A stretch of 8,275 nt of DNA from contig JAFZXW010000077.1 in NCBI GenBank assembly GCA_017616575.1, positions 1 through 8,275 on the forward strand, given 5' to 3'. Shown piece after piece: positions 5,788-7,595 of the stretch; the stretch's first letter is position 1, and each line of letters starts with the position of its first letter. Made by a program: the position numbers and the translations under genes. Source of the stretch: Candidatus Methanomethylophilaceae archaeon. GTDB taxonomy: Archaea; Thermoplasmatota; Thermoplasmata; Methanomassiliicoccales; Methanomethylophilaceae. Under the pieces are notes generated by a model. It saw nothing but the letters and a program-made list of their open reading frames with translations, was not told the origin of the DNA and did not search any database.

Positions 5788-6300
5788 ATGGACCTTGCCG
5801 ACGTTCTTTCGAATCCAGTCCGGACGAAGATAGTGCAGTGCCTCCAGTTCAACAAGGAGGCCACCACGAAGCAGATAGCCGCGGCCTTGACGGACGTCCC
5901 CGCTCCCACGGTCTACCGTCACGTCAGCTTCCTGCTGAAAGAGGGCGTGCTGACCGTCGTTTCGGAGAACAAGGTCAGGGGGACCACTGAAAGGCTGCTT
6001 GCATTGAACGAGGACTTCTGGTCTCCGAAGACCGGTGCCGACCTCGATCAGGCGGCATTCCAGTTCCTCGCATCGCTTTACAGGGGGTTCCATGAATACT
6101 GCTCTGCAGGCGGCAGGGACCCCGAAGCCGACATGCTCTGCCTCAGGACGTGCGTGTTCCGCCTCACAGACGAGAGATTCGGCCGTTTCATCGAGGAATA
6201 CGCCGAACTGGTCGAAAGGTACAGGGAAGAGGACGGCGAAGGAAGTCTGAGAAGCGTCTCGTTCATATCCGCGCCGGTGAAAGAGGAGGAAAGGGCATGA
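5788..6300 (+). CDS. ArsR-like winged-helix transcriptional regulator
   Basis: A 170-residue protein with an N-terminal winged helix. Helix 1 starts at LSNPVRTKIVQCL (7-19), helix 2 is ATTKQIAAAL (25-34), the recognition helix is APTVYRHVSFLLKEGVL (39-55), and the wing is VVSENKVRGTTERLLAL (57-73). The opening LSNPVR phrase is typical of ArsR-type repressors. The C-terminal half is mostly helical, with Cys105, Cys118 and Cys122, and ends in a charged tail. It could be a dimerisation or ligand domain; the ligand is unknown. A 20-bp palindrome sits directly upstream, suggesting that it represses its own operon. Its stop overlaps the ATG of the alpha/beta hydrolase (ATGA at 6297-6300), so the two are almost certainly co-expressed and the hydrolase is the obvious regulated function. 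Confidence 0.85.
   Translation: MDLADVLSNPVRTKIVQCLQFNKEATTKQIAAALTDVPAPTVYRHVSFLLKEGVLTVVSENKVRGTTERLLALNEDFWSPKTGADLDQAAFQFLASLYRGFHEYCSAGGRDPEADMLCLRTCVFRLTDERFGRFIEEYAELVERYREEDGEGSLRSVSFISAPVKEEERA
6283..6289 (+). promoter_or_regulatory. Strong Shine-Dalgarno GAGGAGG that fixes the hydrolase start at 6297
   Basis: GAGGAGG with a seven-base spacer to the ATG at 6297 is the best ribosome binding site in the window. It places initiation five sense codons before an in-frame TAG. The only other in-frame start candidate, TTG at 6354, has no such site. Confidence 0.75.
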
Positions 6301-7244
6301 GCATCCGCGAATAGAAGGTCACGATAGAGGGAAAAGTCCGCATCGGCGCCACCTTGACATGCCAAGACACGGAAGGAAAGAATCCCGCGATAGTGCTGAT
6401 ATCCGGAACCGGGAAAGCCGACCGCGACGGGAACTTCAAAGGATTCCATACGGATTTCTACAAGAACCTGGCTGGAACGTTCGCCGAATGGGGATTCACG
6501 GTCATCCGCTACGACAAGAGGGGGCTTTACGAGACCGAGGGGGATTTCGATACCGCAGGGCTTAGCGACCTAGTGGACGACGCCGCTGCGGTCGTTCTAT
6601 ATGCAAGATCGCTGCCGTCCGTGAATGGAGAAAAGATCGTGGTCTGCGGCCACAGCGAAGGGGCGCTGATAGCGACCATTTTAAGTGAAAGGGAGAAGGT
6701 CGACGGCCTGATGCTCCTAGGAGGCGCCGCCATGTGCATCAAAGACGCCCTCTATTACCAAAACAGGCTTCTCGCCGAGGAGGCGGAGCACAAAGAAGGC
6801 CTGAAAGGGGCGATCCTCCGCAGAAGCGCGACGTTTAAGAAAAGCAAAACGAAGGTCGACGGCCTGTTCGAAAAGTGTTCCAACACCGACAAGGGCCGCG
6901 TGTTCTTCGGCGGAGCGACGATGAACGCCAAGTGGGTCCGGGAGCACGGATCGTACGCTTCCAAGGATTACGTCGAAATGCTGAGGCGCTACGAAGGCCC
7001 TGTGCTCGCCATCACAGGCACCAAGGACCTTTCCGCGGACTTCACGTTCCTGGACGCCATAAAAGGAATCCCGTCCGTGGAATGCTATGCGCCGGAAGGG
7101 GTTAACCACATCCTGAGGGAGGTGGACGACGACAACAGCATCCTGGAGGTCAGGAAGCAATACGTCCGCCTGTCGTCGAAACCTATCCATGCCGGCACAG
7201 AGGAACGGATGCGCGATTGGCTGACGAAGAACTTCTTGAACTGA
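6297..7244 (+). CDS. Alpha/beta hydrolase with in-frame TAG at codon 6 (candidate pyrrolysine codon)
   Basis: Read through the TAG at 6312-6314, this is a 315-codon alpha/beta hydrolase of unknown substrate. It shows the oxyanion-region phrase ISGTGKADRDGN (from about residue 25), nucleophile elbow GHSEG with Ser120, a cap region of about 125-205, TGTKDLSAD with the likely acid Asp244, and GVNH with His271. Together they complete a triad. From the ATG the product begins MSIRE, then TAG, then KVTIEGKVRIGATLT, which looks like the first beta-strand of this family and would be lost if translation began at the TTG at 6354. The ATG overlaps the regulator's stop and has a strong ribosome binding site. 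Three readings remain: amber decoded as pyrrolysine, a recent nonsense mutation (GAG to TAG is one base), or weak initiation at TTG. No bases beyond the TAG are otherwise damaged. Confidence 0.8.
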
Positions 7245-7365: not shown

Positions 7366-7512
7366 TCACTCGGAAACGCCGTTCTGGCCGAGGTAGTAGT
7401 GCTCGACGACCTTTCCAGTGGCATTGTCAGCCCTGTAGGCCGCATAGGTGACGGCGACGACGGCTGCGAGGGTGACTGCGGCGACTGCGACTGCAACGAT
7501 GATTCCAACCAT
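7366..7512 (-). CDS. Small single-pass membrane protein (48 aa), unknown function
   Basis: From the ATG at 7512 the product is 48 residues: an uninterrupted Val/Ala/Ile-rich segment at about 2-26 (one transmembrane helix or uncleaved anchor), then a short polar tail with YRADN and EHYYLGQNG. I do not recognise it. The frame is open to 7587, but the upstream part is polar and unlike a signal sequence. GTGAGGT lies about eight bases before the ATG at 7512 and decides the start. A long, AT-rich leader with inverted and direct repeats precedes it. It sits alone downstream of the Trm5 gene, same strand, with its own terminator-like hairpin. Role unknown; small regulators or subunits of membrane complexes look like this. 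Confidence 0.6.
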   Translation of the reverse strand: MVGIIVAVAVAAVTLAAVVAVTYAAYRADNATGKVVEHYYLGQNGVSE

Positions 7513-7532
7513 TTGAATCGACCTCACTTTTT

Positions 7533-7571
7533 TTGTTGACGTCATTGTTGTTTTACATGACGTCTCAACAA
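7533..7571 (-). promoter_or_regulatory. Paired TGACGTC sites and inverted repeat upstream of the small membrane gene
   Basis: TTGTTG-ACGTCAT (7533-7545) and ATGACGT-CT-CAACAA (7557-7571) form an inverted repeat with one 2-base bulge. Seen another way, TGACGTC occurs twice as a direct repeat (7537-7543 and 7558-7564) with 21 bases between equivalent positions, two DNA turns; the first copy is the perfect palindrome TGACGTCA. A TATA-like ATTATTAAATATTA lies just upstream on the minus strand (about 7604-7591). It may be an operator or an mRNA leader hairpin. Confidence 0.4.
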
Positions 7572-7595
7572 TTGTAGTATTCTGCATCCTAATAT

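Follow-up and report, generated by a model that had tools for sequence, protein, structure and literature searches.

The in-frame TAG near the start of a gene for a predicted alpha/beta hydrolase in a Candidatus Methanomethylophilaceae archaeon, a gut-type methanogen, is likely decoded as pyrrolysine (Pyl) by tRNA-Pyl, which would yield a full-length enzyme of 315 residues; we put the probability of this reading at roughly 0.8. In the standard code, this codon ends translation. Sense decoding is favored here because predicted genes for Pyl synthesis are present in the source genome and the same codon occurs within other enzyme genes. The gene lies in a window of 8,275 nucleotides (i.e., the whole stretch of DNA that was analyzed), and its features are collected in Table 1. 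Its frame runs from the ATG at 6297-6299 to the TGA at 7242-7244, with the TAG as codon 6 and codons 7 to 315 (309 codons) open after it, and the ATG overlaps the TGA (6298-6300) of an upstream regulator gene. An initial annotation of this DNA had described the same layout, including the GAGGAGG seven bases before the ATG, and we confirmed it in the sequence. Among the 11 predicted genes of the window whose end was read, nine end in TGA, two in TAA, and none in TAG. In addition, a frame of 73 residues that contains a single hydrophobic stretch is found on the minus strand (7366-7587), between the hydrolase gene and a gene for a TRM5/TYW2-type methyltransferase.

Table 1. Features of the regulator-hydrolase region, in window positions
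Feature	Position	Strand	Basis or remark
HTH regulator gene whose stop overlaps the hydrolase ATG	5788..6300	+	PF12840, 3.2e-8; tblastn
Shine-Dalgarno-like GAGGAGG	6283..6289	+	Sequence; seven bases before the hydrolase ATG
Alpha/beta hydrolase gene with in-frame TAG	6297..7244	+	Open frame; 315 residues if TAG is sense
In-frame TAG, codon 6, likely pyrrolysine	6312..6314	+	Glu codon in same-genus orthologues
TTG, residue 20, possible internal start, unlikely	6354..6356	+	Without Shine-Dalgarno by eye; strand loss in model
GTG, residue 33, start of truncated database protein P0001	6393..6395	+	

The read-through protein matched Hydrolase_4 (PF12146) at 7.2e-12, with PF00561 and other families also over cut-off, and a homologue search with it returned 1063 proteins. 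The stretch 3' of the TAG is therefore coding rather than a chance open frame. Homology also spans the TAG itself. Alignment of the best 120 of the 1063 homologues, all 120 of which could be aligned, revealed that the TAG column is occupied in 119, by E (58), K (32), N (16), Q (4), S (3), I (3), T (1), R (1), and D (1), the sole exception being the database protein P0001. The GHSEG at residues 118-122 (G-x-S-x-G nucleophile elbow) is invariant in a 41-sequence alignment, and the NH at 270-271 is retained. An AlphaFold model, made from 41 sequences with the TAG residue entered as Lys, has a mean pLDDT of 95.8 and strands at 4-10 and 16-22, and in this model residue 6 falls in the first beta strand. 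Among solved structures, the fold comes closest to lipases and feruloyl esterases, the best matches including a thermophilic lipase (7q4j), PET46 (8b4u), and feruloyl/cinnamoyl esterases, with 12-21% identity among the 50 matches listed. By family, elbow, and fold, the gene product is predicted to be an alpha/beta hydrolase.

Should the TAG act as a real stop, as it does in the standard code, either the gene has been disrupted recently or translation begins at one of the later in-frame starts (TTG 6354 or GTG 6393) and yields a shorter protein. We consider this very unlikely. No Shine-Dalgarno was visible by eye in the 22 bases before either start, and in the model initiation at either one would leave out the first strand and the greater part of the second. 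These later starts are also unlikely because residues 12, 17, 18, and 19, which lie between the TAG and the TTG, are each conserved in 117 to 119 of the best 120 homologues. The initial annotation had read this segment as a plausible N-terminal strand; the sequence past the TAG is conserved in homologues and forms strands 1 and 2 of the model. As for a broken gene, the other 309 codons are intact and both the GHSEG and the NH have been kept; a very recent break may nevertheless be compatible with the conservation pattern.

The database protein P0001 comprises 283 residues and aligns with 90% of the query at 99% identity. It begins at the codon matching the GTG at 6393, without the first 32 residues, and beyond that initial residue a single internal residue sets it apart from the window protein. 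Such a start fits the same TAG lying upstream in a second assembly, while the P0001 contig may simply begin there, and the two may not be independent. With that proviso, P0001 speaks against an erroneous base in the metagenome assembly, with GAG as the true codon, as do other in-frame TAGs that are common to several genomes. A base error would be easy to picture, given that the codon stands on a single contig of a 247-contig assembly and that GAG, one base away, is present in 7 of the 13 orthologues read, but we regard it as very unlikely.

Hydrolase matches were found in 36 of the 199 genomes searched (source genome included). Of the 30 same-genus genomes besides the source, 13 have a clear orthologue, at 53-61% identity and with E values of 2.5e-107 or better. 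Codon 6 was read at 13 loci of 14 places, the second copy in G026 (contig C67) being left out, and it encodes Glu in all 13 (GAA in 6, GAG in 7). The hydrolase TAG was absent from every other genome searched, and in the clostridial comparison, which comprised four relatives, the three readable codons at the site were AAG, AAG, and AGG. The initial annotation had suggested that homologues might show either a conserved TAG or a sense codon here; the former was not found, whereas the latter was. The uniform Glu among same-genus orthologues is better explained by a recent change at a site that tolerates substitution than by a functional pyrrolysine that has been conserved. On this sequence comparison, the TAG probably arose by a recent Glu-to-Pyl substitution, GAG and TAG being one base apart. 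The regulator gene stands directly upstream of the hydrolase in all 13 same-genus loci by tblastn (one is cut by a contig end), and the simplest account would be that a conserved two-gene operon gained its TAG in the source lineage through a GAG-to-TAG change. An apparent TGA inside the hydrolase gene of G008 was rejected as a further case, since that TGA is the normal gene end.

Four loci of gut clostridia (L013, L014, L015, and L016) carry hydrolases of about 50-54% identity, and a regulator homologue is located some 770-780 bases upstream in three of the four. This likeness suggests that genes have passed between gut bacteria and methanogens.

Machinery for Pyl was recovered in part from the source assembly, which consists of 1,251,191 bases in 247 contigs and is 61% complete. 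Contig C80 carries pylB (391.9 bits), pylC (312.4 bits), and pylD (203.5 bits), all over curated cut-offs, and the MtmB of the genome (722 bits) has one in-frame TAG. A check for the full pylTSBCD set, as the initial annotation had proposed, thus succeeded for pylB, pylC, and pylD. The other two were not recovered: no pylS over cut-off was found in this 61%-complete assembly, a DNA search for pylT with the tRNA-Pyl of G014 matched over no more than 18 bases (E 0.144), and ARAGORN detected no tRNA-Pyl (anticodon CUA) in 40 sampled source contigs. Of 10 pylS loci from relatives, ARAGORN reports a tRNA-Pyl in 4, so it can miss this tRNA. The shortfall of pylS and pylT counts in favor of a real stop. 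We infer, however, that both genes are probably located immediately past the end of C80, because that contig breaks off inside pylB and pylB comes directly after pylS in all 10 loci read from relatives. Moreover, pylS over cut-off is present in 27 of the 30 other same-genus genomes (38 of the 60 genomes searched, source included). Collectively, pylBCD, the TAG-bearing MtmB, the other TAG-bearing genes, and the occurrence of pylS in the genus lend good support to the Pyl decoding first suggested for this codon, the parts not recovered being pylS over cut-off and pylT.

We surveyed in-frame TAGs in 40 source contigs, three of which were chosen on purpose (C80, C232, and the window). Family matches were found to run across a TAG in HisC (TIGR01141, 1.6e-88), CobT (TIGR00303, 1.6e-92), and an SMR-family transporter (PF00893, 1.8e-18), as well as in a corrinoid protein (TIGR02370) whose match, at 4.9e-40, is below the family cut-off; two more source genes without a family resemble TAG-spanning genes by codon scores. 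The HisC TAG (L086:454-456, source contig C165) is unique to the source genome and falls at a site that is Tyr in every one of the 29 other same-genus genomes compared (28 TAC, 1 TAT), an odd position that counts against a harmless change. In the corrinoid protein gene, near MtmB on the minus strand of L051 (source contig C232), the in-frame TAG at 2563-2565 is followed further on by an in-frame TGA (2416-2418) with coding-like sequence after it, which may reflect a decayed gene, a base error, or something more. Two further frames were observed in genome G006, namely a predicted surface-like protein with two TAGs in one frame (L093, 12411-12413 and 12558-12560) and a 619-codon minus-strand frame, DNA ligase-like by eye, with a TAG at residue 77 (L097, 4168-4170).

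The CobT TAG (L074:2307-2309, source contig C45; query residue 211) could be followed across species. CobT was searched in 30 genomes, three of which gave no match, and the TAG is common to 4 of the remaining 27, i.e., the source genome, G005, G025, and G029 (relatives' loci L148, L149, and L166); the other 23 have GAG (14), GAA (8), or CAG (1). G025 and G029 are sisters in the tree with a support of 1.0, and their comparison gives the same dN/dS, 0.046, for the 210 codons that precede the TAG and for the 141 codons that follow it (dS 0.53 for the latter), while the other TAG pairs have values of 0.096-0.137 after the TAG, at high dS. If the sisters inherited the TAG, this purifying selection past it implies that translation continues, and on these alignments CobT translation appears to run on past the TAG. 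TAG-bearing CobT genes occupy three separate places on the tree, some of them weakly supported, which indicates more than one gain or loss of the TAG. G005 has the CobT TAG and no pylS over cut-off in an assembly that is 82% complete.

Genome-wide usage of TAG was assessed with a home-made codon-usage scorer as the gene finder. Raw gene calls ending in TAG numbered 20 of 168 in the source genome, 3 of 186 in G006, and 15 of 186 in G035; with a stricter score, the figures were 10 of 134, 1 of 165, and 9 of 142, respectively, and 9 of 118 for the source without the three chosen contigs. By eye, 5 of the 10 source TAG ends lie inside genes (L051 twice, L054, L074, and L086), which leaves, as a rough figure, about 5 TAG ends among 129 strong calls. 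TAG avoidance is thus evident for G006, whose single TAG end itself lies inside a gene by eye, but was not shown for the source genome and was dropped as proof. One of the five remaining ends, L082:5943-5945 (source contig C125), is the TAG of a long frame that falls inside a tRNA-Pro gene (5931-6005), and the two seem to overlap. Since TAG still seems to end some source genes, its decoding in this genome may be mixed. A junction test for coding sequence on both sides of a stop retained 9 TAG, 4 TGA, and 0 TAA junctions in the source genome, 3, 9, and 1 in G006, and 0, 7, and 1 in G035. Those set aside for overlap with a better gene numbered 24 TAG, 5 TGA, and 7 TAA in the source, 5, 5, and 3 in G006, and 2 TAG and 1 TAA in G035. 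Three of the nine source TAG junctions (all in L064) look like antisense artefacts, and CobT, which came from the list of TAG-ended calls, is not among the nine. Many of the TGA cases resemble neighboring genes in one frame. The junction counts were therefore set aside as proof, and the argument rests on the family matches across the TAG.

Apparent TAG ends in the source genome also make competition with termination possible, and Pyl insertion is described as a competition between Pyl-tRNA and the release factor (PMC9499178). The codon could then act as a switch governed by Pyl supply, with translation mostly aborting after five residues and the hydrolase being made only when pyrrolysyl-tRNA is plentiful; codon 6 would be a cheap abort point. 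Such a switch would tie the regulator-hydrolase operon, and with it an ordinary metabolic enzyme, to methylamine supply and metabolism at almost no cost. We regard it as quite unlikely: the codon is Glu in every same-genus orthologue read, RNA structure near the TAG is no better than in shuffled sequences (z -0.12), and the other source TAGs sit deep inside genes. The expression switch raised as an option by the initial annotation thus gained no positive evidence, either from folding or from TAG conservation. The same folding result, obtained for positions 6290-6420, led us to reject a pyrrolysine insertion structure as a candidate; according to PMC9499178, an insertion element is not required for Pyl insertion.

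Under pyrrolysine decoding, GAG would have changed to TAG by one base and been tolerated as the cell supplies charged tRNA-Pyl. Pyl would then occupy a position in the first beta strand that is Glu, Lys, Asn, or Gln in homologues; given this variation at the site, the replacement is probably close to neutral, with no part in catalysis. A fraction of ribosomes may still terminate at codon 6, at a cost of five residues only.

Heinemann reportedly described in 2009 how Pyl came to be present in a tRNA-His guanylyltransferase of Methanosarcina by neutral evolution, which would be a comparable neutral appearance of TAG in an unrelated enzyme, and a 2025 report is said to describe archaea in which every TAG codon is decoded as Pyl. 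Within gut methanogens, 16 non-methyltransferase Pyl proteins were predicted for 'Ca. Methanomethylophilus alvus', and a new in-frame TAG was argued to be stable where Pyl is always supplied (Borrel 2014, PMC4153887). That case resembles ours in that ordinary genes of a Pyl-decoding gut methanogen contain in-frame TAGs where relatives have sense codons (PMC4153887), whereas the genus member and the gene are different. TAG stops amount to 1.6% in 'Ca. M. alvus' (PMC4153887) and are seemingly more frequent here, by the rough count of about 5 in 129 strong calls. In the rumen methanogen ISO4-H5, 46 genes contain amber codons, among them metabolic enzymes and corrinoid proteins, as with HisC, CobT, and the corrinoid protein described above (PMC5011839); no hydrolase of the same family is known to be among them. 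The methylamine methyltransferases MtmB, MtbB, and MttB have their TAG decoded as Pyl by the same machinery, but there the Pyl is conserved (PMC3941956), unlike the hydrolase site, and serves catalysis (PMC9842639). Non-methyltransferase genes with in-frame TAGs have thus already been described in such archaea, and the hydrolase is one more case; literature searches yielded no report of this hydrolase among the papers listed.

The hydrolase joins the non-methyltransferase genes that likely carry pyrrolysine. The CobT result provides a test of read-through from sequence alone, in which purifying selection past a TAG in two sister species argues for its translation in an ordinary enzyme. In addition, gene calls in databases can cut off TAG-bearing proteins at the N-terminus, as in P0001, and annotations of such methanogens therefore need code-aware reading.
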